From: Candidatus Latescibacterota bacterium
GTDB lineage: Bacteria > Latescibacterota > UBA2968 > UBA8231
Direction of reading: 5' to 3'
DNA length: 64,000 nucleotides
Assembly: GCA_022819745.1 (NCBI GenBank)
Contig: JAJEGS010000055.1
Coordinates: 1 to 64,000 of the forward strand
Part shown: piece by piece, positions 1 through 17,237 of the stretch
Layout of the letters: every line of letters begins with the position of its first letter
Position numbering within the stretch: position 1 is the first letter of the stretch
Program-made: the position numbers and the translations under genes
Notes under the pieces: model-generated
The model's database searches: none
What the model was told of the DNA's origin: nothing
Seen by the model: only the letters and a program-made list of their open reading frames with translations

Positions 1-1196
1 CTTCACCACGGTTCATCCCCGCGCCTGCGGGGAACATACCGCGATGGATGCCCGGACCGCGTTCTTGTTCGGTTCATCCCCGCGCCTGCGGGGAACATGG
101 CTATCCCCCCACACGTCAAAGGGATCAGTCCGGTTCATCCCCGCGCCTGCGGGGAACATCAAGCCATTGTCTCCGTATGCGGCGGGATGGGCGGTTCATC
201 CCCGCGCCTGCGGGGAACATGAGTTATCGTTTAAGCAGGAGTTCGAGGCCGATGGTTCATCCCCGCGCCTGCGGGGAACATGCCACCCCCTCCACACGTC
301 AAAGGGATCAGTCCGGTTCATCCCCGCGCCTGCGGGGAACATTACCCTACTACGTCCCACTACGTCCATACTGACGGTTCATCCCCGCGCCTGCGGGGAA
401 CATAACCGTCTGGCGAAACGTCAATACGCCGCTTTCGGTTCATCCCCGCGCCTGCGGGGAACATATGCCACAAAATAGGCGCGAGGGGGCTGCCTGCGGT
501 TCATCCCCGCGCCTGCGGGGAACATAGCTTTGGGAATCAAAAGTCCCTCGGTTCTGCCGGTTCATCCCCGCGCCTGCGGGGAACATGGGCAACGGCCAAG
601 GACGTGGAAGGCACAACGCGGTTCATCCCCGCGCCTGCGGGGAACATTTGTCCCCGCCGAGGAGATCGAGGAGGCCCGCCGGTTCATCCCCGCGCCTGCG
701 GGGAACATTCCACAAGATGCCAATGCGGGTCGGCATAAATCGGTTCATCCCCGCGCCTGCGGGGAACATCATTGTGGCCGCCGTGGTGGCCCTTGTAACG
801 GCGGTTCATCCCCGCGCCTGCGGGGAACATTTCTCCCCTGTCTGTGTGCGCAGGGACTAGGACGGTTCATCCCCGCGCCTGCGGGGAACATGCGAAGTTG
901 ATGAAGTCGGCCTCGAACTCCTGCGGTTCATCCCCGCGCCTGCGGGGAACATCCGATTAGTACTCGCGCGGTAGAACCTAATCTCGGTTCATCCCCGCGC
1001 CTGCGGGGAACATAGAAGGTAGAAGAGCAGCTTGAAAAAATAGTTAGGTTCATCCCCGCGCCTGCGGGGAACATGAATTTTCCTCTTGCCTTCGCGCACG
1101 CGAATACGGTTCATCCCCGCGCCTGCGGGGAACATTTCTAATTTACCCTTGCAACCGTTCCAGCTTTCGGTTCATCCCCGCGCCTGCGGGGAACAT
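1..1196 (-). CRISPR. Type I-E CRISPR array, 20 repeats, truncated at the left edge
   Basis: Twenty copies of a 28-29 nt repeat start at 10, 71, 132, 193, 254, 315, 376, 437, 498, 559, 620, 681, 742, 803, 864, 925, 986, 1047, 1108 and 1169. The period is exactly 61 bp, giving 32-33 nt spacers. The core is perfectly conserved and contains the stem CCCCGC/GCGGGG. Only the base before GGTTCAT varies (C in 18 copies, T at 253, A at 1046). That is the position type I-E systems derive from the PAM. By comparison with E. coli repeats the array is transcribed on the minus strand, so the 1169 copy is leader-proximal and newest. Bases 1-9 are the end of a further spacer, so the array continues beyond the window. 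Spacer pairs 99-131/282-314 and 221-253/892-924 share sequence. Confidence 0.99.
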
Positions 1197-1301: not shown

Positions 1302-2529
<1,228 letters not shown>

Positions 2530-2530
<1 letters not shown>

Positions 2531-3261
2531 TAGGCAATCCTTTTTATGAGCATCAGGCCACAGCCAAATGCCTTGCCGCGCCCGAAACCCTGCCGAAGAC
2601 GGGCGAGAAACGAATTGGGCTCGGTTATGGTCAAAGCACCTTTGAGGTCGAATATGCCCAACGTGCCAAATTGTCCACCGCGCCGTGCGAAACGCTCGGC
2701 GCGATAGCCTTCGAGTCTCAGCTTATCAAGGTGGAATCCATGTTCCGCAGCCCGCGTCGTTAGCCAGTCGTAGGCCGCCTTTTCGGCAAGTTGCATCCGA
2801 TATCCGGCGCGGTCGGGTTTTGCTTCCTCCTTGAGCAGATCCATAGCCACATCGCAGCGTTGCCGAACGGCTTTTCCCAGACCGTCCTCGCCAACCTTTC
2901 GATCAACTGTAGCGTTAAGGCGCAGGTCAAATGCCAGCTTATTGCCAAGTGAGAGTGCTGGCTCAAAGGGTTTTGTCTCGATAGTGAAGAAGGGAGAGTC
3001 TTCCAAAGGCTTGGGGCCGAGAAGGTAGTACCGCCCGCGTTGACGGTCAGCCCGCCAAAGAAACGCGGATTTTGGCGTACCGGCAGTCCGGCTCTGTTCC
3101 ACCTCAGTACGAATTTCTGTCGGGATGACTGTCCAGAGTAACCGGTGATCTACTGCGAGACGGTCAGACGACTTCGATGGTTGAAGGACTTGGAGCAAGG
3201 GCTTGATGTCCTCGGCATCGCGCCGGAGCGTAAGACGCGAAAAATAAAGGAGTGTGCTCAT
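2530..3261 (-). CDS. cas6e: Cas6e (CasE) crRNA-processing endoribonuclease
   Basis: 243-aa ferredoxin-fold RNase that recognises the repeat hairpin, cuts at its base, and stays bound as a Cascade subunit. The candidate catalytic histidine is H39 in the VDHRLLW motif typical of the family. The C-terminal glycine-rich loop GFGRGKAFGCGLMLIK is the classic RAMP signature. Start ATG overlaps the cas5e stop by 4 bp. It should process the array and possibly also the two degenerate repeats between cas3 and cas8e. Confidence 0.96.
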
Positions 3262-3962
3262 TGCGAAGCCTCCTCTTGGTCGGTAGGAACGTATTCATAT
3301 TCGCGCCGTTGCCCGAACTGCCAGCTCGTGCGGTCGCCCGGCTCGTCCATCCGCAGTCGCGTCCGCAAGGAAGCGTCGGGAGAGCCGAGGTCCGCCCGAT
3401 CCTCCACGGCGATTAGGCCATGCGGCTCGTCGCTATGGCGCCTGAACGCATCAATGACCGTTTGTGCTTCAATGATCTCCGGCGCGAGTGGGTGCGACAG
3501 TGGGCAAGATTTGCGCCCTAAATACAATGTGTAAACCGGTTTCTCGAACCCAGTGTTGAGATTCTGCAACGAGTATCGTCCTCCTGAGACGGCTCGGTAA
3601 GCCGCTTGGTAGCGCACATCCGTACGGTACTCGCGGTGAGTGATGCTCGTCGCAAGGTCCAAGGGGTGGGAAAGTGCCTCCGCTCTAGTGTGCAGACGCC
3701 CTTTGGCCGAAGGCAACGACTGGTAAGTGTGGAAATCCGTCACCAACGTTCCGGCGCACAGTGTGTGAGTAGCAATACGGAAAGAGGCAGCAAGTGTCCT
3801 CTGCCCCTCTGCATCAGCACGATCAATGCCTAGCGCCGCGCCAGCCAGCCCCAAAAGGGCAGACCGCGTTGGACGGTCAGCCGTGCCGCGCCGCACGTTG
3901 CCTGCCTCTTCGCCGAAGCTGGCCATGGGTGCCGCAAGGGTGACGATCAGCCATTCCGTCAT
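3258..3962 (-). CDS. cas5e: Cas5e (CasD) Cascade subunit
   Basis: 234-aa Cascade subunit that caps the 5' handle of the crRNA. The N-terminus LIVTLAAPMASFGEEAG and the segment RRGTADRPTRSALLGLAGAA match the type I-E Cas5 signature. A longer upstream in-frame ATG exists. I chose the ATG at 3962 because it begins the conserved domain and overlaps the cas7e stop as ATGA. It is followed by cas6e with another ATGA overlap, so the five Cascade genes are translationally coupled. Confidence 0.95.
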   Translation of the reverse strand: MTEWLIVTLAAPMASFGEEAGNVRRGTADRPTRSALLGLAGAALGIDRADAEGQRTLAASFRIATHTLCAGTLVTDFHTYQSLPSAKGRLHTRAEALSHPLDLATSITHREYRTDVRYQAAYRAVSGGRYSLQNLNTGFEKPVYTLYLGRKSCPLSHPLAPEIIEAQTVIDAFRRHSDEPHGLIAVEDRADLGSPDASLRTRLRMDEPGDRTSWQFGQRREYEYVPTDQEEASQ

Positions 3963-5026
3963 GCTAAGCCCTCTTCCGCTGCGAAGGCGGCTAGTTCGTC
4001 CAGCTTGGCACTGTCCTCTTCGCCTACGTGGAGTTCGATATCGTCTCTCCAATCCTTACCATAGGTTTTCTCAAAGTCGGTGCGCTGTTTCTTGAGCGCC
4101 TTTACGGATTCTGCGAGTTGGTTGCCCGATCCTACTGGTTTGGTGAAGGCACTGGCCAAGCTGCGAGGCTGGCCATCGCCGCGCTCCAACAACAGGTATT
4201 CGGCGCGCACGTGATTAGCGAAGCTGTTTTTCTTGCCAGAGGGCGAGGCCGTCGCCGCAGCACGTACCAGCGCGGAGAGAGCACGGCCTGCCAGATCCGT
4301 ATCACCCGAGAGATTTTTCAAAAGTAGCTCCCGATTTACACAGATGTAGAGATAGAATACGCCAGCGCCGAAACCCGCCTCTCCGATGAAACCTGCTCCC
4401 GCATCCTCTTCTGGGGTCTTCAAGTCGTCAACAGCCGTGTAGTAGTCATCTTCGATATCGACTCGGTTAGTGGTAAAGGCATGAGCCACTTGCACGGCGG
4501 CATCGCGGTTGAAGTTGGGGTTGTCAGCCAACATGCGCCCGAACATCGCGATGTCCACGGCTCCATCAGCGGTGTTTAGGACCTGTTTCGCCAGTTCCTT
4601 TTCCTTCGGTAAAGATTCCCCGCTCAGTGCCTTTTCTGCCAAATCGAATGCAGCAGCGCGTTCATCCGGCGAGACGAAGGCTAGCTGTTCGGTATAGGCC
4701 GGATTCTCGTCTTTTTCCCCTTTTATTTTTCCGAACAGGGTAGCGATATTCCGTGCGATTTCGAGTGCCTTGTCCTCCGAAGCACCCTTTTCTAGCAGAT
4801 GCTCTCGCACCTTGTCGCCCATACGCTGCGTGCGCTCGCCTAGCTTTCCCGTTAGGGCGAACCGGAAAGCGTCGTCCGTGCGGATGGCGCGTTTGAGGGC
4901 TTGGCTGGAAATGCGCATCCGCGACACACCGCCGATGAAGGCGGTCTTGGGACGGCCGAGGTCGTCTCGGTTGGGGTTGGACGGCGGATAGGTGGTCAGA
5001 ATGTGCATTTGCACAAAGCGGCTCAT
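3959..5026 (-). CDS. cas7e: Cas7e (CasC) Cascade backbone subunit
   Basis: 355-aa backbone protein, of which about six copies coat the crRNA guide in 6-nt steps. The family signature is clear near the N-terminus: HILTTYPPSNPNRDDLGRPK, then GGVSRMRISSQALKRAIR. The thumb inserted between neighbouring subunits is what leaves every sixth guide base unpaired. This matters for the mismatch pattern of the pseudo-spacer at 7384-7403. Starts 3 bp inside the end of cse2. Length is normal for the family. Confidence 0.97.
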   Translation of the reverse strand: MSRFVQMHILTTYPPSNPNRDDLGRPKTAFIGGVSRMRISSQALKRAIRTDDAFRFALTGKLGERTQRMGDKVREHLLEKGASEDKALEIARNIATLFGKIKGEKDENPAYTEQLAFVSPDERAAAFDLAEKALSGESLPKEKELAKQVLNTADGAVDIAMFGRMLADNPNFNRDAAVQVAHAFTTNRVDIEDDYYTAVDDLKTPEEDAGAGFIGEAGFGAGVFYLYICVNRELLLKNLSGDTDLAGRALSALVRAAATASPSGKKNSFANHVRAEYLLLERGDGQPRSLASAFTKPVGSGNQLAESVKALKKQRTDFEKTYGKDWRDDIELHVGEEDSAKLDELAAFAAEEGLA

Positions 5027-5589
5027 AGTTGAGTCTCCTCTTGGGGTTGGGTGTTTTCTGGAGTATCGGCTCGGCGCGTATGATAGTATTCAAAGGTCCA
5101 TTGCTGCCGGGTCTGGTCATTAAAGAAGAGTACGTCGCGGACAAAACGGCGGACGTTAAAGGGCTTGTCGCCCAAGATCGCCAAGGCCCGACGCAATGCC
5201 AGCGCGAACCTGTCCTTGTTGTCCTTGTCCGTGCTGGCCCTGAGCAGAGCACTAAAGCGCATAGACGACAGGCGTGGACGAGTGTCGCCGGTGGGAATTT
5301 TATCTTCCTGCGTGTGGCCCAAAACAGTGGAGAAGTTTGGAAAACGGGCGATTTTCTCAGCGGGTTTAACCCTAGCAAGGGCCAAGGCCAGCACGGCGAG
5401 GTTTTTCTCAGACACATAGCCATTTTCATGCACGCTAGCGATTAGCCTATGAGTCTCTGGCTCTAAGAGGGCGTCGAATACGCTTTCGCAGCGCTTCAGC
5501 CGCGCTCGGGCACCCCGATCTCCGTGATCCGCGTGAAGCAATTTCCACCAGTTCACTACTGCATTGACGGTAGGGCTGTCATGCTGCAT
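5023..5589 (-). CDS. cse2: Cse2 (CasB, Cas11) Cascade small subunit
   Basis: 188-aa helical protein in the expected place between cas8e and cas7e. Two copies form the belly of Cascade and stabilise the R-loop. Family-like features are the N-terminal segment AVVNWWKLLHADHGDRGARA with basic residues, and the RFSALLRA-type segment near residue 130. The sequence is poorly conserved in general, so the assignment rests on size, position and these short matches. The start codon overlaps the cas8e stop. Confidence 0.93.
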   Translation of the reverse strand: MQHDSPTVNAVVNWWKLLHADHGDRGARARLKRCESVFDALLEPETHRLIASVHENGYVSEKNLAVLALALARVKPAEKIARFPNFSTVLGHTQEDKIPTGDTRPRLSSMRFSALLRASTDKDNKDRFALALRRALAILGDKPFNVRRFVRDVLFFNDQTRQQWTFEYYHTRRADTPENTQPQEETQL

Positions 5590-7259
5590 TAAGCGGCCTC
5601 CTTTTTGGTTTTGGATTTTGGCTCTGGCAAAGGAAGATCGAGCTTGTCGTAAAGCGTCTTGCTCTGCTTGGTCAGGCCAGCAAAGGTTGCGTTCAAGATC
5701 CCATAGGCGTTGACGATAGTCTTGGCCTTCTCGGCATCTTGTAAGGGCACGGGTGCTAGGCGGTCAAAAATTGTAAGAGCCTCGTGGCGCATGATCCTTA
5801 GCCAGTGTCGTGCAGAAGCGTTTGGGTCGGTCAAGCGGCCATCTTCGGGCATTTCTTGGAGTAAGTCGTCAAGCAGATGATGGAACTGATCCTCGGTTGC
5901 GTCGAAGAAATGCGCTCGCGCTTGGTCGAGAACCCCCTTATCGTTTGAGGTGTTCTTCTGGCCGCTGAAAAGGGCCTTTTTCAGAGTTGCTAACAACTGA
6001 GAAACCGCTTGATCGGCGGCTTCGGAGAAATGTCGGGCGAGTTCGTCGAGCGCCTGTTGTTGATCGGGTGTCTTCGCCAGATGCAAAGGCTCCTCGGCGA
6101 TGAGATAGGCGATTGCTTCCATGTTGTTCATGGCCCAGCCGCCAACGCGGATGCGGGCATCCACCCCTTGTTTATTCTGGCTAAGGGCGTGGGAGCGATT
6201 ATTCTTGGCGAGCTTGATGTTTGTGGGCTGTTCAGCTAGCTTACCCTCCTTACTCCCCACCGTGACGGCGACCCAGTCGCGATAGCCGAAGCGTCCCGAT
6301 TTTGGCTTGGCTGAATACGGTTCTCCCGCTTCTTTTTGGCGTCGGTAGGGTGTCAAGGGATGCTTCCATAGCCCATAATTTGTGCCGTAGGGCTTCTGGA
6401 TAAATCCGGTGGCTAGTAGTTCCTCCCTGCCGGTCATGGAGCAGATGCCCGGCTCGCTGGAAAAGACTAGCCGGATGCGGCGTGGCATACCGAAATACGC
6501 CTGCAAAGGGTGGGCGTCTGGGTCGGCTTCATGCACTTCACGCGGAGGCTTGCCTCCTGACGTGAGCGTCGGAGCCAGCCATGGCAGGGCTTTGGACAAC
6601 TCGCTTGCTTTAGGTTTCGCATAGTGTCCTACATTGGCAAAGATTTTGTGCCACAAAGGCACGAGTGACGCACCGCCATGACTCACCGGAACGACTAGGG
6701 CGGTCAATGGTCCTCCCCCACGCATAGAAGTGCGGTTCCCGGCACCACCGGACGGCGCGTAGGCTTGCAGGGTGTACAGTGCCATGGCCGCAGCCGATAA
6801 ACCAAGAGCGGCATAGCGGTCGCGGTGAGTCAATAGGTCCGAGTTTTTGCGCTGGCCGTTTTGCCCAGGTGTGTCAATAAACAGCAATTCAATGGGGGTT
6901 TCGCCGCCTTGCAGGGACTCACAGTCCTGTAGGAAGCACGGCCCTTCGCCGTTGAGATAGAAGGCGGAAATAAGAGGGGCGAGCTTTTCGGCAAGCACGT
7001 CTCGATTAGGCGGATTGGTCCAAAATGGACGCCAGTCATCCTCTCCGCGGATGTCGAAAGCGAGCGATAGTACGCCGATACAGAACTCGAAGCTCGCCAT
7101 ATTGAAGTCTGGACGCGGCCAGCTAAATTCGACTGGGTAGTCTTCATTCAAGCCGTTGCTTTTGGCCCCGGTCACCAGTTCGGGAAAGGCAAGCCATCTC
7201 TGTGCTCCAGATCGCATGGTGACCGGGAGAAAAGGATCGCTGAGCAGATTAAAAGTCAT
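5589..7259 (-). CDS. cas8e: Cas8e (Cse1, CasA) Cascade large subunit
   Basis: 556-aa large subunit that recognises the PAM and recruits Cas3. The N-terminus FNLLSDPFLPVT is characteristic of Cse1. The remaining sequence, including a tract near AYAPSGGAGNRTSMRGGGPL, fits the family (E. coli CasA is about 500 aa). The start is fixed by AAGGAGCT nine bases upstream of ATG 7259. It is the first gene of the Cascade-adaptation operon, with its own promoter region (7260-7406). That region contains a site resembling the pseudo-spacer between the degenerate repeats, suggesting autoregulation. Confidence 0.96.
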   Translation of the reverse strand: MTFNLLSDPFLPVTMRSGAQRWLAFPELVTGAKSNGLNEDYPVEFSWPRPDFNMASFEFCIGVLSLAFDIRGEDDWRPFWTNPPNRDVLAEKLAPLISAFYLNGEGPCFLQDCESLQGGETPIELLFIDTPGQNGQRKNSDLLTHRDRYAALGLSAAAMALYTLQAYAPSGGAGNRTSMRGGGPLTALVVPVSHGGASLVPLWHKIFANVGHYAKPKASELSKALPWLAPTLTSGGKPPREVHEADPDAHPLQAYFGMPRRIRLVFSSEPGICSMTGREELLATGFIQKPYGTNYGLWKHPLTPYRRQKEAGEPYSAKPKSGRFGYRDWVAVTVGSKEGKLAEQPTNIKLAKNNRSHALSQNKQGVDARIRVGGWAMNNMEAIAYLIAEEPLHLAKTPDQQQALDELARHFSEAADQAVSQLLATLKKALFSGQKNTSNDKGVLDQARAHFFDATEDQFHHLLDDLLQEMPEDGRLTDPNASARHWLRIMRHEALTIFDRLAPVPLQDAEKAKTIVNAYGILNATFAGLTKQSKTLYDKLDLPLPEPKSKTKKEAA

Positions 7260-7281
7260 TGATAGCTCCTTAAAAATAATA

Positions 7282-7303
7282 ATTAACCAACAGCTTACTA
7301 CAT
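7282..7303 (-). promoter_or_regulatory. Protospacer-like site in the cas8e promoter with ATG PAM
   Basis: Read on the minus strand this is ATG (7303-7301) followed by TAGTAAGCTGTTGGTTAAT. It matches the 19-nt pseudo-spacer at 7402-7384 at all positions except guide positions 6, 12, 15 and 19. ATG is one of the interference PAMs accepted by E. coli type I-E Cascade (known for the family). Positions 6 and 12 are the bases Cascade flips out. The site begins two bases downstream of the predicted -10 box and covers the predicted start site. Function as a Cascade binding site is inferred. Confidence 0.6.
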
Positions 7304-7304
7304 A

Positions 7305-7332
7305 AGTAAAAGAAGTGATCGCACCTTGTCAA
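7305..7332 (-). promoter_or_regulatory. Predicted promoter of the cas8e-cas2 operon
   Basis: On the minus strand a perfect TTGACA (7332-7327) is followed after 16 bp by TTTACT (7310-7305), four of six to the -10 consensus. The expected start site is near 7298, giving a leader of about 40 nt before cas8e ATG. The promoter sits directly upstream of the ATG PAM and the protospacer-like site at 7282-7303. Mapping of the start site is needed; spacing alternatives of 17-18 bp give weaker -10 boxes. Confidence 0.55.
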
Positions 7333-7355
7333 GGGCAACTTGCGGCCTATCAATT

Positions 7356-7431
7356 AATTAATCCCCGTGTGTACGGGGAACACGTTAGCCGACAGCATAC
7401 TACGGCTCATTCCCGCGTCTGCGGGACAACA
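7356..7431 (-). ncRNA. Candidate CreR/CreA-like Cas-regulating RNA: two degenerate repeats around a short guide
   Basis: Two imperfect CRISPR repeats, at 7431-7404 and 7383-7356, flank a 20-nt pseudo-spacer (7403-7384). The period is 48 bp, not 61. Against the array repeat both keep the 6-bp stem through paired changes: TCCCGC/GCGGGA in the first and CCCCGT/ACGGGG in the second. The predicted 5' handle ATGAGCCG differs by one base from the array handle ATGAACCG. Cas6e processing would give a crRNA-like RNA with a 19-20 nt guide that resembles the cas8e promoter. No dedicated promoter is evident, so it may come from the 3' end of the cas3 transcript. Alternatives are a decayed mini-array or a duplicated operator. 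Confidence 0.62.
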
Positions 7432-10184
7432 AATCTAAAGCCCTGTCGGGCACAGTACATAAAATAGCCGTCATCTTTCGCCCCTTCCAATCGCACCCGT
7501 CCATCTTCTTCTACCACGGCAATAAGTATCTCGCGGCGTTCCCACTCCGGCCAGTCATTTTTAGCCTGCTCTTGCAGGGCCTGATCCTTGGTCGGAGGAG
7601 ACGCACTATCGAGAAATTTCTCCCGCACCTGAATCTCGGACAAGGCCCAAGCCCTGTTGAGGTCGTCGGCTGCACACCGTGGAACAAAAGACCCTTCCGC
7701 TAAGCGAGCCAAGCGCAACGTGACGGTCTTTTCTCCTAGCCGGGTGCCGATGTCCTCTGTGCCGCTCAATTCCGTCGGCAGGATACCGTAGCCATCTTCT
7801 AAGCTGACGACATTGAACCGGCCCAGCGAGCGGCTGCCCATTTCCTTCCCTTCGTCTTCGATTTGCTTTTCTTCAAGGGCCGATGGCACATCATCATTGG
7901 TGTAAACGCGTTCAATCAACGGGCGAAAACTTCCCGGCGTGTCAATACGTCCAGTGTCAAACAGGGCCTTTGCACTGCGCCACATCACGCCGGCATGTTG
8001 ATAGACAAAGGCCGCCTTGCCGAGTACTGGCTCAAGCCAGTTTGCATCTTCTACCTGATCGGGGTCTGGTGAGACAACAAGCACTTGGGGGCCGTCTATC
8101 GGGCGGCTTTTCGGCGGGCGCTCGTCCAAATGCCGCCACATCCGGCCGGCCCGCTGAATTATGAGATCTACCGGCGCGAGATCCGAAATGACCAGATCAA
8201 AGTCGAGGTCGAGACTTTGCTCAACCACCTGCGTAGCCACAAGGATGCGTCCCGCCCGGTCCGTCGCGTCGGCGTCCCTCCCGAATCGGCGCAATACGTC
8301 CTCTTCGATGTCCTGCCTATCGCCTTGGGCAAAGCGAGCGTGGAACAGGTGAACGCGATCTAGGTGATCCACTTGGTTCGCAATCGACTCATGTACGGCG
8401 ATGGCCTCATCTACTGCGTTGCAGATGACCAACACGGCTGCTCCCTTTTCTGCTGCGGAGAGTGCCCGTGTCTCAGCGGTTGTTCGGTCGGACAGGCGTT
8501 CTACCGTTACGCTGCGACGCAACTCATAATCGAATCCCGACTCGCATTCCTGTACTCCGCCGACTGTGGCCGAGGTGAGCAGCGGGTACGCCTCACTGCA
8601 TAGTTGATCGCTCAGATCTTCTGGGTCGCGCAGGCCGAGGCCCTTGGCAAACGCCTCTGTCATATTGCGGCGCTGCTCCAGAGATAAGGTCGCCGAGAGC
8701 ACGATGGCGGAGCCGCCGTTTTGGGCGTGAAGTTCCAGCAGCGCGGAGAGTTCCTCGCCCATATAGGCATCAAAGCAATGGGCTTCATCAACGATGAGGA
8801 TGCGGCCAGCCAAACCATATTGTCGCAAGGTTAAATGTTTTTTGGGGAGGACGGAGAGAAAGGCTTGGTCGATGGTCCCCGCTCCGACATCTGCGTAAAA
8901 GGCTTTCTTTCGGTTATCTGCAATCCATTTGGTACAAAAGGCGGATGTGGTTTCATCCTCGCTACCATTTGGCCATGCGCCAGTGGAATCCTCGCCGCCG
9001 TTAGCCATGTCAGTAGAGTTGACGATGGCGCGGAACGCCTTGGACAGGTCTGACTTGCCGTGTGCCAAGACGAGTGAGAGGTCATCGGCGGCTGAAGTTT
9101 CAAATAGTGTTTTATAAGTCTTTGCCAATCGCTCATACATAGCGTTGGCCGTCGCCATAGTCGGCAGCGCAAAGTACAGGCCCTCCCCCTTGCCCTTGGC
9201 CATCATCCGGGCCGCGAGCATAATGGCCGCCTCTGTCTTACCGGCACCTGTAGTATCTTCTATGATGAATAGCTGCGCTCCGTCTAAAAGCGGTACTTTT
9301 TCCGCCAGTTTCTGCATGGGTCTTGGACGGGGGGCCGCTTGCGGCGCGAAACTAGCATAACTCGGACGGGACTCCGGGGACTGAGGCCGTAGCCCCTTGT
9401 CCACTATGGCCTTTTCGGCCTGAGTAAGCGCCCACTCCCAATAGTCCTCCAGCCTCGTATCGACCGATTCAAAAGAGAAGTAATCGGGGTCCGAACCAAC
9501 CCAGTCGGCCAGTGTGACAAGCCCTGACAAGCGCCAGGACCACTGCGTCGCCTGCTTCTGCTTTTCGAGAGACGATAGCGGCAGAGGCTCTATCAGGTTG
9601 CGGAGCATACAAAAGGCAGTATGAGCCGCGTCCACGCATTCCTCACCAAGCTGCTGGTCGCGTCGAGCTTTGCCTGGATCGGCGTTTACTTCATCCTGTC
9701 CCTCGGGCGGTCGTCCATGGTGCCCCGCAATGGCAGCAATGATAGGTGCTATATCATAAGGGATGCTAGGGAATAGGCTGGCGAACTCTTGGGATATTGG
9801 TTCGGCCCTGAGAAGGATAGCCGTGTTGCGCCAATGACCGCGGTCGGAGATTTCTCTCTTCGGGCCAAGGACCTGCCTTGGCCACAATTCGGATACCTTC
9901 GCCTGAAAGCCGCGTGAAAATTTGCCGAGATCGTGTACGCCAGCCAGAAAAGCCGTGGTCTTGGCTAAGCACTCTGGACTCGCTTTCAGTAAAGCGGCTT
10001 CGCGCTCAAGACGGGTAGGATTCAATTGCTGCCATCGTAAGGCGACGGCAGCGACATCCATCAAATGATGTAGGACAGGCTTATAGCTACGTTGCCCTTC
10101 GGTATCACTGAATACAGTTTCCGAGGAATTGTCAAAACTGCGCAGCGTCTTGCCCCAAAATGCTAGCAGACGAGCCTCTTCCAT
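7407..10184 (-). CDS. cas3: Cas3 helicase-nuclease, type I
   Basis: 925-aa effector that unwinds and degrades DNA marked by Cascade. The N-terminal HD nuclease domain has HH near residue 39, HDLGK (HD at 84-85) and AGHHGRP near 153. The SF2 helicase part has Walker A TGAGKTEA (312-319), DEAH (466-469), SAT (about 497) and QRAGRMWRH (about 677-685). An ATG at 10247 is possible. I chose 10184 because the protein then begins just before the HD domain, as in E. coli, and lies one base after the stop of the SDR gene (TGA-G-ATG). The last seven codons and stop lie inside a degenerate CRISPR repeat. Confidence 0.96.
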   Translation of the reverse strand: MEEARLLAFWGKTLRSFDNSSETVFSDTEGQRSYKPVLHHLMDVAAVALRWQQLNPTRLEREAALLKASPECLAKTTAFLAGVHDLGKFSRGFQAKVSELWPRQVLGPKREISDRGHWRNTAILLRAEPISQEFASLFPSIPYDIAPIIAAIAGHHGRPPEGQDEVNADPGKARRDQQLGEECVDAAHTAFCMLRNLIEPLPLSSLEKQKQATQWSWRLSGLVTLADWVGSDPDYFSFESVDTRLEDYWEWALTQAEKAIVDKGLRPQSPESRPSYASFAPQAAPRPRPMQKLAEKVPLLDGAQLFIIEDTTGAGKTEAAIMLAARMMAKGKGEGLYFALPTMATANAMYERLAKTYKTLFETSAADDLSLVLAHGKSDLSKAFRAIVNSTDMANGGEDSTGAWPNGSEDETTSAFCTKWIADNRKKAFYADVGAGTIDQAFLSVLPKKHLTLRQYGLAGRILIVDEAHCFDAYMGEELSALLELHAQNGGSAIVLSATLSLEQRRNMTEAFAKGLGLRDPEDLSDQLCSEAYPLLTSATVGGVQECESGFDYELRRSVTVERLSDRTTAETRALSAAEKGAAVLVICNAVDEAIAVHESIANQVDHLDRVHLFHARFAQGDRQDIEEDVLRRFGRDADATDRAGRILVATQVVEQSLDLDFDLVISDLAPVDLIIQRAGRMWRHLDERPPKSRPIDGPQVLVVSPDPDQVEDANWLEPVLGKAAFVYQHAGVMWRSAKALFDTGRIDTPGSFRPLIERVYTNDDVPSALEEKQIEDEGKEMGSRSLGRFNVVSLEDGYGILPTELSGTEDIGTRLGEKTVTLRLARLAEGSFVPRCAADDLNRAWALSEIQVREKFLDSASPPTKDQALQEQAKNDWPEWERREILIAVVEEDGRVRLEGAKDDGYFMYCARQGFRFVVPQTRE

Positions 10185-10185
10185 C

Positions 10186-10953
10186 TCAGCGGCCCATCCA
10201 CCCCCCATCGACGAGTACGATGGACCCGTGCACGTAGTCGGCGGCACGCGACGATAGCCATACCACCGCGCCTTTTAAGTCGTCCGGCGTGCCCCACCGG
10301 CCCGCTGGGATCCTTACCAGTAGCTGCTCGTTGCGCACCTGATCGTCGCGCAGGGCCTGATTGTTGTCGGTGGCGATATAGCCGGGGGCAATGGCATTGA
10401 CGTTGACTCCACGACCAGCCCATTCGTTGGCCAGCGCCATGGTCAACTGCCCGATCCCGCCTTTGGCCGCAGCATAGCCCGGCACTGTGATCCCACCTTG
10501 GAAAGTCAGCACCGAAGCGGTGAAGACGATCTTGCCCCGGCCGCGGGACAGCATCTGCTTGCCGAATTCCCGCGCCAGCACGAACTGCGCGTTTAAGTTC
10601 ACCTCGATGACGTGGTCCCAGTCGTCGTCTCCATGTTCCTCAGCCGGGGCGCGCCGAATCGTACCGGCGTTGTTGATGAGGATGTCGATTGGTCCGACCT
10701 CGGCGTTGACCTGCTCGACGAAGGCGCGGACCGCCTCCCGGTCGCTGAAATCGCAGGCATAGCCTGTGAAGCGCTTGCCGCGTTCGGCAATGTCTTGGCC
10801 GACTTCGGAGTCTGCTTCCAGCGAGGCGCTGACGCCGACGATATCCGCGCCCGCCTCGGCCAGTGCTTGCGCGAACCCGCGTCCGATGCCTCGGCGGCAC
10901 CCGGTGACCAGTGCCGTCTGGCCGTCGAGCTTAAAAAGGTCCAAGATGCTCAT
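10186..10953 (-). CDS. SDR-family oxidoreductase, 2-deoxy-D-gluconate 3-dehydrogenase (KduD)-like
   Basis: 255-aa classical short-chain dehydrogenase. Seen: cofactor loop TGCRRGIG (17-24), NNAG (94-97) and catalytic S147, Y160, K164. The start LFKLDGQTALVTG and the C-terminus VDGGWMGR resemble KduD and gluconate 5-dehydrogenases, which interconvert hydroxy and keto groups on sugar acids using NAD(P). It is the last gene of the minus-strand operon from 17237, starting six bases after the alcohol dehydrogenase. Its stop is separated by a single base from the cas3 start, so the metabolic operon and cas3 may share a transcript. Substrate is unknown. Confidence 0.88.
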   Translation of the reverse strand: MSILDLFKLDGQTALVTGCRRGIGRGFAQALAEAGADIVGVSASLEADSEVGQDIAERGKRFTGYACDFSDREAVRAFVEQVNAEVGPIDILINNAGTIRRAPAEEHGDDDWDHVIEVNLNAQFVLAREFGKQMLSRGRGKIVFTASVLTFQGGITVPGYAAAKGGIGQLTMALANEWAGRGVNVNAIAPGYIATDNNQALRDDQVRNEQLLVRIPAGRWGTPDDLKGAVVWLSSRAADYVHGSIVLVDGGWMGR

Positions 10954-10959
10954 TCTATA

Positions 10960-11982
10960 TTATTCCCCTTGGGTGTCGATTAAAATTTTGACTGCGTCCG
11001 TGCCCGCTGTCAGTCGGGCAAAGGCGTCGGGCAGCGCGTCTAAGGGAAGGCGCTCGGTAATCAGTTCGTCGAGCGGTAACGCACCGCTGGCCGCTAGCTC
11101 AATGGCGCGGTCGTAGTCTTCGGGTTCGTACACGCGCACGCCGCACATTTTTAACTCGCGCCAGAAGAATTGAAAGAGATCGACTTTAGGAGCGTCAGCG
11201 AAAATCGCTACTACCACGATCCGCCCGCGGACCTTGGCGAGCTTAGTCATTACCTCGGCCCCGGCCGACGAGCCGGAGACCTCGAAGACTGCGTCGGCTC
11301 CCGCGCCCTCGGTCCAGGCTTCGACGTGGGAGATCAAGTCCTCCTCCAGCGGATGGACGGTTTCCAGCCCCAGTGCGTGTGCCGCCTGTAGCCGATAGGC
11401 ATTGACCTCGGCCACCCGCACCTCGGCCCCCGCGTGCTGCGCCACCAACGCGTTGAGCAGGCCGATCGGGCCGCCGCCGATCACCACCACCTTCTCGCCC
11501 GGCACCACCTCGCCCAAGCGCACGTCGTGACAGGCGACCGCCAGCGGCTCGACTAGGGCACCCAGCGTCATCGGCATGTCGTCAGGCAGACGGTGCAGTG
11601 TGTGGGCTGGCACTGTCCACGATCCTTGGAAGGCTCCCGGACTGTCGATGCCGATGAAGTTTAGGTTTTGGCAGATGTGGCCATTGCCGGCGTTGCAGGC
11701 CGCGCACGCGCCGCAAGCCTCTAGGGGACGCACTACGACCGGATCGCCCACGGCCCAGTCTTCGACGCCGGCCCCGATTTCTGCGATCCGCCCCGACATC
11801 TCGTGCCCAATGACTTGAGGCATGTCGATCCGGCGGTCCTGATGGCCTAGGTAAATGTGGATGTCCGTGCCGCATACGCCGCAATAGGCCACTTCGATCC
11901 GCACCTGATCTGCGCTGGGGGATTGTGCTCGGCACTCGCCTATTTCGACGGTGCGGTCGCCGCAGTAATAGGCCGCCTTCAT
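10960..11982 (-). CDS. Zinc-dependent alcohol dehydrogenase (threonine/sorbitol dehydrogenase type)
   Basis: 340-aa medium-chain dehydrogenase. Catalytic zinc ligands are C37 (CGVCGTD) and H60-E61 (GHEMSG). Structural zinc cysteines are 90, 93, 96 and 104, and the Rossmann motif GGGPIG is at 169-174. The set fits NAD-dependent polyol or threonine dehydrogenases; the substrate is not evident. I placed the start at ATG 11982, which begins the fold and overlaps the stop of the upstream phosphatase-superfamily gene (ATGA). A longer frame exists upstream. With the SDR it could oxidise a sugar or polyol released by the hydrolases of this operon. Confidence 0.9.
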   Translation of the reverse strand: MKAAYYCGDRTVEIGECRAQSPSADQVRIEVAYCGVCGTDIHIYLGHQDRRIDMPQVIGHEMSGRIAEIGAGVEDWAVGDPVVVRPLEACGACAACNAGNGHICQNLNFIGIDSPGAFQGSWTVPAHTLHRLPDDMPMTLGALVEPLAVACHDVRLGEVVPGEKVVVIGGGPIGLLNALVAQHAGAEVRVAEVNAYRLQAAHALGLETVHPLEEDLISHVEAWTEGAGADAVFEVSGSSAGAEVMTKLAKVRGRIVVVAIFADAPKVDLFQFFWRELKMCGVRVYEPEDYDRAIELAASGALPLDELITERLPLDALPDAFARLTAGTDAVKILIDTQGE

Positions 11983-13880
11983 CGCAGATGCCAGTCCGCG
12001 TCTTCGAGTGCCTCGTAGATTACGCCGCCTTCCACCTGCTCGGGCATGGGGATGCCTAGCAAGTAGCACAGCGTCGGCGCGACGTCCACCGCTCGCACTT
12101 GGCGCTTGAGCGCTAGCCCTTGCTTTACGCCGGCCCCAGCTAGCACGAATGTGCAGTGCTGGCCGCCGATGCCGAGGGTGGCCGAGGGGAGCTGCTTGCC
12201 GTGCGCGCCGTCGTATTCGGGCCGCAGGGCATAGACCACATCGCCGACGAGTTCGCCTTCCAGATTGACCATTTCCGCGTCTTCCCGCGTCAGCGCGAGG
12301 GCAAATGGAGCGCGCCCGGTCTGCGGATGGCGATAGGCGTGGAGGGCTTCGATGAGGTCGAGCCGCGTTTGCTCGTAGTCGCTGGGATCGACGATCCCCG
12401 TAGGCTCGCGTCCCTTGAGATTGACGAAGATGTGGACCAGCCCCACATTGGCCGCCCGCGTTCGCTGCCAGTCGATCTGGTTTTTCTCCGCGTCTGCATA
12501 GACCAAAAAGCCCGCCTGTTCCAGCACCTCGGCGATATCGACCGGACGGTGTTGGTTGGGGGTGCCGCCGTGGTCGGCGACGACCGCGACGACGGTGTCG
12601 TCATCGGCTAGTTCGACGACGCGGCCGATCATGCGGTCGATGGAAGCATAGGTTTGAGCCACGCCCGCTTGGCAGCGCGCTAGCGTGTGCGCGTCGGCTC
12701 CACTGCACTCGTCGGCTTGTGAGAGGAAGAAGTGGCTGGTGTAATCCGAGGCGTGGGTTTCGATGAACAGCACGTCCCAGTCATTGCTCTCCGTCAGGTA
12801 AGCAGCCACCTCGGCCAGCCGCTGGTGGTGGAAGTCCAACAGCTCGAAATAGGTGTCGTCATCGACTACGCCCAAAGCGTCGCGTGCTGGATTCTGCAGG
12901 AAATTGCCGACGTTTTCGTCGATCTGCTGCGCCACTTCTTCCGGCTGTGTGTACCCGGTAGCCGGCCAGATCTGCGGCACAAAAAGCTCGAACACATCGC
13001 CTGCTGCGCTCAGGCTGACGAGTTTCATGCGCACGTAGCCGTCAAGCGCCTGTCCGTCGATTTCAAAGCTGTCCTTCCACCACTCGGTCCATTGGCCTAC
13101 GGATAGCTCGGCGACTCGGTCACTCGCATCGCGGCTGCGACAAATGAGCAGTCGATCGTAGCCCTTGTCGGCCGAGGCGTATATCAGGCCGTAGAAATGT
13201 TTAGGCGTTCCCTCTCGGCCTTGTCGGCGCATGTCAGCTCGACCGCGCTTGAGCATCTCGACGACTAGCTCTACTTCTTTGGGCGGCAGCGCGGATGTGG
13301 GCACATCTTGCCATCCTTCCGCTGGGACGATTTCCACTGGATCGACGTTGCGCACCTTTTGCAAGGCGCTCGGGTCCAACGTCTCGGGATCGCGCGGCCC
13401 GCCGATTGGCCGAGGTGTCCAGCCGCCGCCGACAAAGAGGTGATAGCCGGTGATCTGATGCACGTTGGACACGCCTGGGCCGGTGCCCTCGACTTGGATG
13501 CCGGTTTGCACGGTCGGCGGCCAGGACATCTCCCACTTGACCAAGATCGGCTTTTTGTCGGCCCGCTCGACCGTGTTCCACATGTACTCGGCCTGCGAAA
13601 GTTGGGTGTTGATGCCCCACACAGTCTCGTCGAGACGCCCACCTAACTTGCGGATATTGAAGTCCATGACTTGATGGGTACCCGCCCAAGCTCCGGTCGA
13701 AGTGGCCGTCCAGCCGGGTGGGGTCAAGGTTGGAAAAACGCCGATCATGGGCCGCTTGACGCCCTGCGCCATGAGCTGACCCAAGTGGGGCATGTGACCT
13801 TGATCCACCATGTGTTGCACCAACTCCATGGCGGCACCGTCCATGCCGATGACGATGGCTTTTTGCGCCGGACTCTGCAT
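11979..13880 (-). CDS. Alkaline phosphatase superfamily hydrolase (phosphodiesterase/phosphomutase type)
   Basis: 633-aa protein of the AP superfamily. The metal and nucleophile region reads IVIGMDGAAME near the start, then FPTLTPPGWTATSTGAW, where the PTLTPPGWT segment is typical of nucleotide pyrophosphatase/phosphodiesterase-like members with a Thr nucleophile. A second metal motif, VVADHGGTPNQHRP, lies about two-thirds along. No signal peptide, so probably cytoplasmic. Start at 13880 is supported by AGGAGA ten bases upstream. It lies between a sulfatase and an alcohol dehydrogenase in one operon, so it may cleave an ester in the same pathway. Confidence 0.83.
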   Translation of the reverse strand: MQSPAQKAIVIGMDGAAMELVQHMVDQGHMPHLGQLMAQGVKRPMIGVFPTLTPPGWTATSTGAWAGTHQVMDFNIRKLGGRLDETVWGINTQLSQAEYMWNTVERADKKPILVKWEMSWPPTVQTGIQVEGTGPGVSNVHQITGYHLFVGGGWTPRPIGGPRDPETLDPSALQKVRNVDPVEIVPAEGWQDVPTSALPPKEVELVVEMLKRGRADMRRQGREGTPKHFYGLIYASADKGYDRLLICRSRDASDRVAELSVGQWTEWWKDSFEIDGQALDGYVRMKLVSLSAAGDVFELFVPQIWPATGYTQPEEVAQQIDENVGNFLQNPARDALGVVDDDTYFELLDFHHQRLAEVAAYLTESNDWDVLFIETHASDYTSHFFLSQADECSGADAHTLARCQAGVAQTYASIDRMIGRVVELADDDTVVAVVADHGGTPNQHRPVDIAEVLEQAGFLVYADAEKNQIDWQRTRAANVGLVHIFVNLKGREPTGIVDPSDYEQTRLDLIEALHAYRHPQTGRAPFALALTREDAEMVNLEGELVGDVVYALRPEYDGAHGKQLPSATLGIGGQHCTFVLAGAGVKQGLALKRQVRAVDVAPTLCYLLGIPMPEQVEGGVIYEALEDADWHLR

Positions 13881-13894
13881 AGTGTTCTCCTGTT

Positions 13895-15370
13895 TTAGAT
13901 TCCCAAGCGTTCGTATTGCTCTGGTGGTGCTTCGCACGCTTCCATTTGTGCGCGCAACAGTCCCTGCATCCGCTGCTCTAACGCCGCGTCGGCGAGCGGG
14001 TTTTCTTGGCGCGGGTCTTGCTCCAAGTCGAAAAGAAGGGTTCCGTACTCGTGCTGCTTGCTGCGCGTGTGTCCTTGCGTCCGCAGCAGCCGACAGCCCT
14101 TGCTAAAACCAAACGGCTCGGCGAGCTCCACGTTGGCGAATTCATCGACTGGGAAGGGGTCGCGCATGTGCGTGGGCATGAGCGTGTAGTTGTACAGGGG
14201 CTGGTTGTCGGGCTGGGCAGGCGCGCGCATGTACACGTAGCGGCCGTCAGTGACGTTCACCTGCCCGCCGTGATTGCCGAAAATCGCGGCCTCGCGCACG
14301 GGTGAATCGCTCGCGCAGACTCCGCGCAGGCTCTGGCCCAGCATGTCCTCGGTCGGCTCCATCTCAAAGAGATCCAGCAAGGTCGGCCCCAAGTCGACCG
14401 ACGGTTGCACCAAGCTCTGCCGTCGCTGGCCCGCGTGGCCGCAGCGAGGATCCCAGACGAAGAACGGCGTATTGGACAGCTCGCGGTACCAAGGCATCTG
14501 TATCTTGGCCCACAGGTCGTGCTCGCTGAGCAGGAAGCCGTGGTCGGTCCACACGATGAGCATGGTGTCGTCCCACAGTTCGAGCCGGTCCATCTCGTCG
14601 AGGATGTCGCCGAGGCGGGCGTCGCACATGCTCAGCAGCGATGCGTAGTGGCCCCGGCATTGATCGACGAGGGCTTGCTCTTCGGTCACCGGGCCGTAGG
14701 TCGGCCAATCGAACAGCACGGACGAGCGGTTCTTAAAAAGCTCTGGGTAGAGGTCTTGGTATTGGCGTTGGGTGAAAAACGGCTCGTGCGGGTCAAAGGT
14801 CTCGATCTGCAAAAACCAGTTGTCTTGCGCGTGGTTGCGGCGGATGAACTCGACGCCGGACTTGAAGGTCTGCGATTGGGGCTGATCTTCCTCGCGGCGC
14901 ATGTATTGCCGGTTGACGTGGTCTTGGCGGTGCCACATGCTGCGGCCCGCATTGCTCGCGTGCGCCTCTACGGGTGGCGGGTCGGCTACTTGTCCGATCC
15001 ACGGGTCGCCCTCTTGGCCGCGGAAGAACTGCCAAGTGTTGTACTGGGTGTGATAGGTAGCGCCGCCGGCCTCCCAGTAGTGGTAGTGATCGCTGATGAG
15101 GTGCGACGAGACGCCGGCCTCGCGTAGCATTCGAGGGACGGAGTCGTCGAACGGCTCCAGCGGCCCCCAAGAGCGGTGGAGAAAGTTGGGTCGCCCGGTG
15201 TGCAAATCGCGACGGGCTGGCATACACGGCATGGAGCAGACGTAGCTGGTGTCGAAAGTGAGCGACCGCTCGGCGAGCCGCTGGAAATTGGGCGCGTGCG
15301 TCCAATCGCAGCCGTAGGGCGGCAACATGTGCCGGTTGAGCGAGTCGAACATGACCATAATTGCTTTCAT
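13895..15370 (-). CDS. Type I sulfatase
   Basis: 491-aa sulfatase of the AP superfamily. The formylglycine site is C49-M-P-A-R53, followed by RDLHTGR, the C-X-P-X-R signature. Asp near residue 9 and the DHGFLLSEHDLW segment supply metal ligands. The N-terminus begins directly with the fold (KAIMVMFDSLNR), without signal peptide, suggesting a cytoplasmic enzyme. Cys-type sulfatases need an anaerobic or FGE maturase, which is not in the window. The start overlaps the stop of the PhyH gene (ATGA). It removes sulfate from an unknown ester, probably the same substrate its neighbours modify. Confidence 0.92.
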   Translation of the reverse strand: MKAIMVMFDSLNRHMLPPYGCDWTHAPNFQRLAERSLTFDTSYVCSMPCMPARRDLHTGRPNFLHRSWGPLEPFDDSVPRMLREAGVSSHLISDHYHYWEAGGATYHTQYNTWQFFRGQEGDPWIGQVADPPPVEAHASNAGRSMWHRQDHVNRQYMRREEDQPQSQTFKSGVEFIRRNHAQDNWFLQIETFDPHEPFFTQRQYQDLYPELFKNRSSVLFDWPTYGPVTEEQALVDQCRGHYASLLSMCDARLGDILDEMDRLELWDDTMLIVWTDHGFLLSEHDLWAKIQMPWYRELSNTPFFVWDPRCGHAGQRRQSLVQPSVDLGPTLLDLFEMEPTEDMLGQSLRGVCASDSPVREAAIFGNHGGQVNVTDGRYVYMRAPAQPDNQPLYNYTLMPTHMRDPFPVDEFANVELAEPFGFSKGCRLLRTQGHTRSKQHEYGTLLFDLEQDPRQENPLADAALEQRMQGLLRAQMEACEAPPEQYERLGI

Positions 15371-16413
15371 ACATTTACCTCGTGTAGGAGTTGGAGAGCC
15401 TGCTGCCCGCGCTCGGATTCAGGATCGCGCCGCGCAATGCGCCGCAATTGGTACAGGGCACGCTCGTCGCCGTCCCGCGCTAGGGACAGGGCCTCGGTAA
15501 ACCCTTGATCTCCCCATTGGGACGACTGCGGTACCACGTCTAGGTCTAGATCCTGCCAATAGTACTGCAATGATTCGCTTTGCCAGCCCGCGTAGCAGGC
15601 TTCCCAGTTAAAGCCGGTGACGCCGATCAGGTGTGGATCCAGCATGTGCTGTGCAATCGGCTCGCCCTGCGCCTGATAGCGGTTGTCGAGCGAGATGCGC
15701 AGGCGATCTTCCGTGTAGTTGGGCAAGGCTTGGTGGACGGTCAGGCTCGGAAAGATCAGCGCGTCTCCGGCTTCGTAATTCGCGCTCAGCCAGCGCCCGG
15801 TCAGTTCGGATTCGTCCACGGCTAAGCCGCCGGCCCCCAGAGAGAAGTGGTGCTCGCGCACCTTGCCGATTTTGTGCGATCCGGGCAGCACGGCCAATCC
15901 TCCCAGTTCCAGCGGACAATCGCCCACGGGAGCCCAGAAGGTATAGGTGTTGAAGCTGCCTTGGAAGTGGACAAAGTCTTGGTGCATGGGCGTGGTGTGC
16001 TCGGTGTATTGGGGAAACCACAGCCGGGCAATTTTTTGGGGATGCGGCAGCACCGGGCCACCGACGACTTGCTCCATCACGGCTAAGACCTCCGGCCAAT
16101 GCCCAGCTTGGTGGAAAGCCTCCAAGCTGTACACCCGGTGATATATCTCGGCGTATTCGGGATCGCCTTCAGTGCACTGCGCGTCGATTCGCGCAATGCC
16201 TTCCATGGGATCCGTACCGGCGACCAGCCACCCGGCCTCCATCAACACCTCCGCCATCTCCTGCCGCAGAGATAGCAGCTTGTCTTTGGCCATGATCTGC
16301 CGCAAGAAGATGTACCCTTGTTCGTCCAGTCGCCGCCGCAGCTCGGCGCTGTCGCCGAGGGCATCGTTGGCCTCTTGCATCAGGCCGACTTCACTTGTGT
16401 CTTTTGCTGTCAT
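15367..16413 (-). CDS. Phytanoyl-CoA dioxygenase (PhyH) family protein
   Basis: 348-aa Fe(II)/2-oxoglutarate-dependent dioxygenase-like protein. The iron-binding H144-Q-D146 occurs in TTPMHQDFVHF, and a distal His lies in FPSLTVHQALPN near residue 228. The segment LAVLPGSHKIG is also typical. A C-terminal extension of about 50 residues contains a helical stretch. An AAGGAC ribosome site precedes the ATG. It lies 11 bp after a second PhyH gene, and the two may hydroxylate related positions on one substrate. Bacterial PhyH enzymes hydroxylate diverse small molecules, so the name does not imply phytanate. Confidence 0.88.
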   Translation of the reverse strand: MTAKDTSEVGLMQEANDALGDSAELRRRLDEQGYIFLRQIMAKDKLLSLRQEMAEVLMEAGWLVAGTDPMEGIARIDAQCTEGDPEYAEIYHRVYSLEAFHQAGHWPEVLAVMEQVVGGPVLPHPQKIARLWFPQYTEHTTPMHQDFVHFQGSFNTYTFWAPVGDCPLELGGLAVLPGSHKIGKVREHHFSLGAGGLAVDESELTGRWLSANYEAGDALIFPSLTVHQALPNYTEDRLRISLDNRYQAQGEPIAQHMLDPHLIGVTGFNWEACYAGWQSESLQYYWQDLDLDVVPQSSQWGDQGFTEALSLARDGDERALYQLRRIARRDPESERGQQALQLLHEVNV

Positions 16414-16424
16414 CAGGCTCGTCC

Positions 16425-17237
16425 TTAGCTGGCCGCTGGCTCCATCTCGTTGTCCCGGAATCCGGCCACGACGATGTTGTTGTTGCGATCCAGCACGTTG
16501 TCTTGGTCGATGCGATGCGGATTGTCCTCAGCGCGTCCCACCGGCCGCAGCGCCGTGCTGTGATAGCCAAAGCGCACGGATTTGCGCCAAGAATCCGTGC
16601 GGTTGCAATCCGACCAGTGGATCGTCTGGTAGCTGAAGAAGATCATGTCGCCGCGCTCTGCCGGCACGGCGACGCTGTCGAGGCGGTCGGGATGGTACTG
16701 CGCGGGCGGCAGGTGCGGGGCTGTTTCCGGCCCCAACACGTGCTCCAGCGGCCCTTGCTTGTGGCTGCCCGGCACGACCATCAGCGCACCGCTCTCCAGC
16801 GGCGTGTCGTCTAAGTGCAACAAGCAATCGACAAAATCCGGGCCGTCGTGCGGGTAGAACGGATAGTCTTGGTGCATGGGGAAGGGCGTGCCTTTCTCCG
16901 GCGGCTTGGCGTGCAGGACCGTGTGGTGCCACTGAATTGGGCCGTCGATGAGCTGCCGCACGCAGGAGATCATGGCCTCGTGGAAGAGGACTCGGCCCCA
17001 AGCGGCCGAGTAAAAATGCGGGTTGTGCATGAAGACCGCCCGCGTGTTGAGCCGATCTTCTTCTTCGAGGTAGCGATCGCGCCAGGGACCAACCCAGCCG
17101 ATGGTTTCTTGCCCCCATTGTTCGATCACCCGCACCATCTCCGAGGCCAACTCTTCGGTTTCCTCGGGCGTGAAGAGTTGGGGGATCTTGAGATAGCCCT
17201 GTTCGCGATATTGCGCTACCTGTTCCTTGCTCAGCAT
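16425..17237 (-). CDS. Phytanoyl-CoA dioxygenase (PhyH) family protein
   Basis: 270-aa PhyH protein, first gene of the minus-strand operon. Iron ligands are H122-Q-D124 (FPMHQDYPFYPH), with a distal His in YQTIHWSDCN and the loop LMVVPGSHKQGP between. AAAGGAG lies seven bases before the ATG. Its sequence is clearly different from the neighbouring 348-aa PhyH, so this is not a recent duplication. Genes from here to the SDR at 10186 are separated by 14 bp or less or overlap, which supports one transcript starting in 17238-17471. Confidence 0.88.
   Translation of the reverse strand: MLSKEQVAQYREQGYLKIPQLFTPEETEELASEMVRVIEQWGQETIGWVGPWRDRYLEEEDRLNTRAVFMHNPHFYSAAWGRVLFHEAMISCVRQLIDGPIQWHHTVLHAKPPEKGTPFPMHQDYPFYPHDGPDFVDCLLHLDDTPLESGALMVVPGSHKQGPLEHVLGPETAPHLPPAQYHPDRLDSVAVPAERGDMIFFSYQTIHWSDCNRTDSWRKSVRFGYHSTALRPVGRAEDNPHRIDQDNVLDRNNNIVVAGFRDNEMEPAAS

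Follow-up and report, generated by a model that had tools for sequence, protein, structure and literature searches.

A two-repeat mini-CRISPR (7431–7355, minus strand) lies in the 147 bp that separate cas3 from cas8e in a type I-E CRISPR-Cas locus from a Candidatus Latescibacterota bacterium; it extends into cas3, and its guide partially matches the region ahead of cas8e. We consider it highly probable (roughly 87%) that this element is a type I-E CreR (cas-regulating RNA), predicted to steer Cascade to the cas8e–cas2 operon and to repress it. The CreR assignment likely includes a variant anatomy, in which the gene for the guide is nested in the stop region of cas3; the regulation is deduced from the sequence. 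Repression of the operon by its own Cascade had been proposed in a first-pass annotation of the window, the 64,000-nt stretch of DNA analysed here. It stands as the best reading, and the argument drawn from mismatches at guide positions 6 and 12 holds in other loci as well. The idea of such self-repression is not new and corresponds to the published CreR.

NCBIfam profile matches place a complete type I-E CRISPR-Cas locus in the first 10.2 kb of the window on the minus strand (Table 1), and the effector set for the predicted repression is complete (cas8e, cse2, cas7, cas5 and cas6e). For cas3, the profiles cas3_core and cas3_HD scored above their cut-offs and PRK09694 below its cut-off. Repeats of the ordinary array and of the mini-CRISPR have the same orientation. 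Within the array, spacers 221–253 and 892–924 share an 18-nt overlap in opposite orientation (235–252/907–924, an inverted repeat), and spacers 99–131 and 282–314 have their first 23 nt in common; one invader was likely sampled repeatedly, as happens in primed adaptation. An ordinary array spacer directed against the promoter was considered and rejected, none of the 19 spacers compared matching at more than 12 of 19 positions.

Table 1 Features of the type I-E locus, the mini-CRISPR and the region upstream of cas8e in the window
Feature	Position	Strand	Remarks
cas3	7407..10247	−	946 aa counted from GTG; helicase and HD domains; stop TGA at 7409–7407
psi-repeat 1	7403..7431	−	29 nt; hairpin UCCCGC-AGAC-GCGGGA; fold −11 kcal/mol; overlaps last cas3 codons
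8-nt handle AUGAGCCG of psi-repeat 1	7410–7403	−	holds cas3 stop
guide (pseudo-spacer) TAGTATGCTGTCGGCTAAC	7384..7402	−	19 nt
psi-repeat 2	7355..7383	−	29 nt; hairpin UCCCCGU-ACAC-ACGGGGA; fold −11.9 kcal/mol
TTGACA, candidate −35 box of cas8e promoter	7327..7332	−	perfect hexamer; conserved in L003
ATG, PAM of target	7301..7303	−	directly precedes promoter copy
target TAGTAAGCTGTTGGTTAAT	7282..7300	−	15/19 versus guide; mismatches 6, 12, 15, 19
AAGGAG, Shine–Dalgarno of cas8e	7266..7271	−	read from sequence
cas8e (cse1/casA)	5589..7259	−	NCBIfam TIGR02547, E = 3.5e-65; first gene of predicted repressed operon
cse2 (casB)	5023..5589	−	TIGR02548
cas7 (cse4/casC)	3959..5026	−	TIGR01869
cas5 (casD)	3258..3989	−	TIGR01868; start approximate
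cas6e (cse3/casE)	2530..3261	−	TIGR01907; predicted processing enzyme
cas1	1577..2530	−	TIGR03638
cas2	1302..1580	−	TIGR01873
ordinary CRISPR array	1..1196	−	20 repeats, 61-bp spacing, cut by window edge

Both psi-repeats are related to the array repeat and have diverged from it in sequence, yet each folds into the repeat hairpin. In each of them, a U-A pair replaces one C-G pair of the array stem, and psi-repeat 1, which groups with the array repeats in repeat family D2, is without the outermost pair. Cas6e is predicted to cut psi-repeat 1 between 7411 and 7410 and psi-repeat 2 between 7363 and 7362. A consensus scan of 7200–7700 called neither a promoter of the mini-CRISPR's own nor a terminator, and an Rfam search of 7200–7600 at E-values up to 1 gave no match.

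Guide and target, both on the minus strand, agree as the first-pass annotation had described, including the ATG PAM ahead of the promoter copy and the complete match at positions 1–5 and 7–11. Its extended count of 16 of 20 was dropped, because both the crRNA handle and the PAM end with the flanking G, which is therefore not countable as pairing. The predicted cas8e promoter holds in part: the −35 hexamer is perfect, but no good −10 hexamer was seen downstream of it, and no promoter was called in the consensus scan of 7200–7700. Throughout the 64-kb window, on both strands, this guide–target match is the best apart from the guide itself, the runner-up reaching 14 of 19 and being preceded by CAC. 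When the 124 bp from 7383 to 7260 were shuffled with their dinucleotide composition preserved, 5 of 20,000 shuffles gave a match of at least 15 on either strand, and 2 of 20,000 gave one beside AAG, ATG, AGG, GAG or TAG; an earlier chance estimate of about 1 in 10,000 is therefore about right.

Related type I-E loci were searched for guide–promoter pairs, as the annotation had suggested. A search of genome contigs yielded 11 cas8e loci, to which genome and plasmid searches added more (14 of the 40 plasmid records with matches were taken in). From the 85 loci fetched (L001–L085), we kept 70, giving 71 regions upstream of cas8e with the window. Left out were 12 second copies of a locus already included, L052, which duplicates L010, and, for lack of a cas8e start, L051 and L085; weak or partial cas8e matches below the family cut-off, such as L042–L046, L055–L058 and L080–L084, were kept in. 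Taxonomically, the survey extends over Alphaproteobacteria and the phylum to which L002, a Candidatus Latescibacterota record, belongs, with two Salinivibrio plasmids as its only members from other groups; viral contigs gave 3 pattern matches, none of them a relative. The scan recorded each handle preceded by a hairpin and compared the guide that follows with PAM-flanked sites up to the locus's own cas8e, allowing nine PAM triplets and weighting all 14 guide positions alike. It found 118 handle-plus-hairpin sites in 55 of the 71 regions, of which 115 were scored, sites of ordinary arrays inside regions L007, L009, L030 and L050 being retained. A match of at least 11/14 within the own region was obtained for 18 of 115 sites, versus 37 of 8,024 guide–region pairs across loci. 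Leaving out L005, whose guide is the same as that of L040, and keeping L003, there are 17 distinct guides with such a match to a PAM-flanked site upstream of their own cas8e. Lowering the threshold to at least 10/14 gives 21 distinct guides; of the four additional ones, we accepted L066/L076 and L010 as belonging with the rest, while inspection by eye led us to set aside L007, which is a spacer of an ordinary array, and L054, whose handle is poor and for which no second repeat was seen.

The mismatches of the 17 pairs are concentrated at two positions. From position 1 to 14 they number 2, 0, 0, 0, 1, 13, 0, 1, 2, 2, 2, 14, 1 and 2, that is, position 6 is mismatched in 13 of 17 pairs, position 12 in 14 of 17, and any other of the 14 in at most 2. 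In 11 of 17 pairs both are mismatched, and 16 of 17 have a mismatch at one or both, the exception being L032, which pairs at both; without L003 the tally is 13 of 16 at either position. Random placement of the mismatches reached both counts in 0 of 200,000 trials, and since the 14 positions were scored equally, scoring could not have created the pattern. All 17 targets are preceded by one of two PAMs (14 AAG, 3 ATG). Since Cas7 of Cascade leaves every sixth guide base unpaired, the family-wide pattern is best read as the footprint of Cascade, not as that of a protein operator. Positions 6 and 12 are also stated to be unpaired in Cascade in the available part of PMC8501985, which describes, for the type I-B CreA, a seed of positions 1–5 and 7–11 with positions 6 and 12 dispensable by mutation. 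Pairing in the window follows this seed, with positions 6 and 12 free. Once the first repeat base is subtracted, guide lengths fall into clusters of 19–21, 26 and 31–33 nt, and guides of about 20, 26 and 32 nt among L033, L029, L009, L005, L032 and L036 are steps of one Cas7 footprint. These clusters fit 6-nt Cas7 steps, short guides being too few for a firm test.

The close relatives of the locus differ in how much of the element they keep. Over positions 13895–16413, the window shows 90–95% identity with five genomes of the L002 phylum, in which the metagenome-assembled genome G001, with its two loci L001 and L003, is also listed. Locus L003 is 82% identical to the window and has an identical psi-repeat 1 and guide. 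Its repeat–guide–repeat block is changed at 2 of 77 bases (the first and the last base of repeat 2), and its target only at positions 6 and 19, resulting in a match of 16/19. Since the window and L003 share one guide, this nearest pair shows conservation, not co-change. Locus L001, which shares 88% identity with 9 kb of the window, has kept the two repeats, and its guide finds no good match before its cas8e (best 11/20 beside TGT, best PAM-flanked 7/14); in L002, the cas3–cas8e gap is decayed. No pair reached 9/14 in L020, L023, L024, L025 and the partial L026 of the same phylum, and L034 and L064 have a repeat-like handle but no scored target (6/14 and 8/14). In genomes G053, G054 and G055 (loci L088, L089 and L090), the flanks are 92–94% identical to window positions 10179–16492 and cas8e is absent. 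G053 retains pieces of cas3 (window 7479–7701 and 8617–9104) and a repeat remnant, from which we conclude that the cas locus was lost there.

Target placement bears on a reading of the window's element as a CreTA-like addiction module, in which the guide would be a CreA antitoxin that silences a small toxin RNA and not a cas regulator. The target lies 246–613 nt before cas8e in 12 of the 17 pairs, and in several of these distant pairs the intervening stretch holds, as judged by eye, a mini-ORF served by a strong ribosome site (for example L005 and L062, also L010), an anatomy described behind the target of CreTA in the available part of PMC8501985. For the window itself we regard such a module as unlikely: the target starts only 41 nt ahead of the cas8e start codon, no toxin mini-ORF with a strong ribosome site was seen between 7282 and 7259, the sole Shine–Dalgarno sequence being that of cas8e, and a toxin gene hardly fits. 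Genomes G053, G054 and G055, moreover, are without cas8e, the first with cas remnants, and an addiction module should hinder losses of this sort. The targets of the window, of L003 (51 nt) and of L065 from Roseomonas marmotae (71 nt) sit directly before cas8e, a placement like that of CreR, and those of L048 (155 nt) and L067 (188 nt) are intermediate. Short ORFs with strong ribosome sites lie between target and cas8e in L004, L005, L009, L010, L029, L033 and L062, among them one of 8 codons with three TTA (L010), one of 11 codons with ATC ATA ATA (L005) and one encoding 35 hydrophobic residues (L004); they are likely type I-E CreTA toxins. In loci L032, L035 and L036, the stretch from the guide target to cas8e contains a conserved ORF encoding roughly 103 residues, a candidate Cascade-repressed protein whose L032 copy has no Pfam match.

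Still less likely is a relic, that is, a functionless leftover of an array whose spacer once came from its own cas promoter and which is now decaying. Decay would not spare positions 1–5 and 7–11 in 17 different pairs, and the two changed bases that separate the elements of the window and L003 stand in an 82% identical locus, with the window's hairpins still folding; the degenerate repeats, and the decay of guide, target or gap in L001 and L002, are what this explanation has in its favour. The least likely alternative, named in the first-pass annotation, takes the two 19-bp copies, 102 bp apart, as operators of an ordinary repressor protein with incidental hairpins; it predicts neither the mismatches at 6 and 12 nor the AAG or ATG ahead of 17 of 17 targets, leaves the excess of matches within own regions among mostly unrelated sequences unaccounted for, and is largely contradicted already, handle and hairpin being a condition of the scan and hence not independent evidence against it save in the window itself.

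The annotation had overlooked that psi-repeat 1 is nested in the end of cas3 together with the stop codon of this gene. The C-terminal residues VPQTRE of Cas3 are encoded by the repeat, and the UGA within the handle is the cas3 stop. With Cas3 homology established by blastp, the stop lies inside the handle in 10 loci including the window (L001, L003, L010, L034, L053, L065, L066, L067 and L079), in agreement with the deposited cas3 ends in L065, L066 and L067. Of these, L066 is on plasmid p296221 of Paracoccus aestuarii DSM 19484 and L067 on plasmid pACRY02 of Acidiphilium cryptum JF-5. L001 and L034 are without a scored target; the remaining eight belong to the 19 elements accepted at a match of at least 10/14 (the 21 distinct guides minus L007 and L054). 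In L061 and L064 the handle is AUGGCCCG, without UGA, and the end of cas3 falls on the first repeat bases, while in L062 and L029 the stop precedes the guide by 48 and 97 nt, respectively; 14 loci had a confirmed Cas3-like ORF upstream, and cas3 continues into the guide in 0 of them. Within the nested stretch, 7 of 7 conserved codons are identical in L003 versus 428 of 670 overall, and 6 of 7 in L001 versus 649 of 803, values that only hint at codon conservation. Common ancestry of the nested-stop loci may account for their sharing of the arrangement, and the overlap could be one of convenience and not a regulatory device, the array repeat itself containing AUGA. We found no report of a first repeat nested in cas3 in the open-access literature, a search outside of which most subscription papers lie.

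In the type I-E system of E. coli, the last 8 bases of the repeat are left on the crRNA as its handle. The same is stated for Cas6 of type I-B in the available part of PMC9458426. Since these bases stay on the crRNA, the predicted cut would leave the cas3 mRNA without its stop; maturation of the guide by Cas6e is thus predicted to remove the stop codon of cas3. Guide maturation and Cas3 translation might be antagonistic, the guide needing a Cas6e cut that creates a non-stop cas3 message and a ribosome at the end of cas3 covering the hairpin and thereby blocking this cut, a notion that we advance tentatively and hold to be rather doubtful.

As a type I-E CreR, the element would operate as follows. 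The precursor of the guide would be transcribed by read-through from cas3, and Cas6e would cut both psi-repeats. The short crRNA would then join Cascade, probably with two fewer Cas7 subunits, and Cascade placed over the start region would block RNA polymerase, with attack by Cas3 being inefficient, as we propose, because guide–target pairing is partial. Abundant ordinary crRNAs or inactivation of Cascade would deprive the guide of its Cascade and derepress the operon. Each Cas6e cut would also yield a stop-less cas3 message, because the handle of psi-repeat 1 contains the stop codon, and guide maturation would in this way also cost Cas3 synthesis. Guide length as the reason for avoidance of Cas3 was considered and is weakened by type I-E reports: the available part of PMC7296934 states that, with spacers shortened by 6 or 12, Cas3-mediated degradation by type I-E complexes persists and is markedly slower. 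Shortness of the guide would therefore not suffice to protect the chromosome. For a type I-B system, the available part of PMC10551041 states that a spacer length of at most 26 nt turns cleavage into repression.

CreR itself was reportedly introduced by Liu et al. (2023, Cell Host Microbe) as a mini-CRISPR beside the cas operon that encodes a crRNA-like RNA with limited complementarity to the cas promoter and is said to have no toxin gene. The window shows the same combination, a mini-CRISPR by the cas operon with a partial guide match to the predicted cas promoter and no toxin gene; compared with CreR, known here by descriptions only, it differs in the cas3-nested first repeat with the stop in its handle, in the 19-nt guide and in its origin from Latescibacterota. 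CreR is stated for types I-B, I-E and V-A in the available part of PMC13131331, and for type I and V-A in that of PMC12737573. With CreA of CreTA, as presented in the available parts of PMC8501985, PMC9458426 and PMC10097628, the element has in common the two degenerate repeats around a guide, the PAM and Cascade as repressor, and also the location of the type I-F Acinetobacter CreA between cas3 and the next effector gene; the type I-B seed with free positions 6 and 12 (PMC8501985, in part) is a further likeness. Unlike the window, where the cas operon is the predicted target and no toxin gene is found, CreA represses a toxin RNA gene, and the type I-F CreA is reported, in the available parts of the same three sources, to be without a canonical seed. 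The tracr-L of Streptococcus pyogenes Cas9 is likewise a natural guide with a short PAM-flanked match through which the effector represses its own promoter; it differs as a type II system that uses Cas9 and an extended tracrRNA, with neither a two-repeat mini-CRISPR nor Cas6, according to the available part of PMC8616872.

Such guide–target pairs beside type I-E cas8e are now found in Alphaproteobacteria and Latescibacterota (17 guides, 71 regions), and mismatches confined to every sixth position together with a PAM provide a sequence test that can separate Cascade targets from protein operators ahead of any experiment. If the nested stop works as predicted, control would reach beyond transcription, one cut both freeing the guide and disabling the cas3 message, and self-damage would be limited at two levels. 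If the antagonism between guide maturation and Cas3 translation were true, a single short RNA segment would govern Cascade transcription as well as the output of Cas3.
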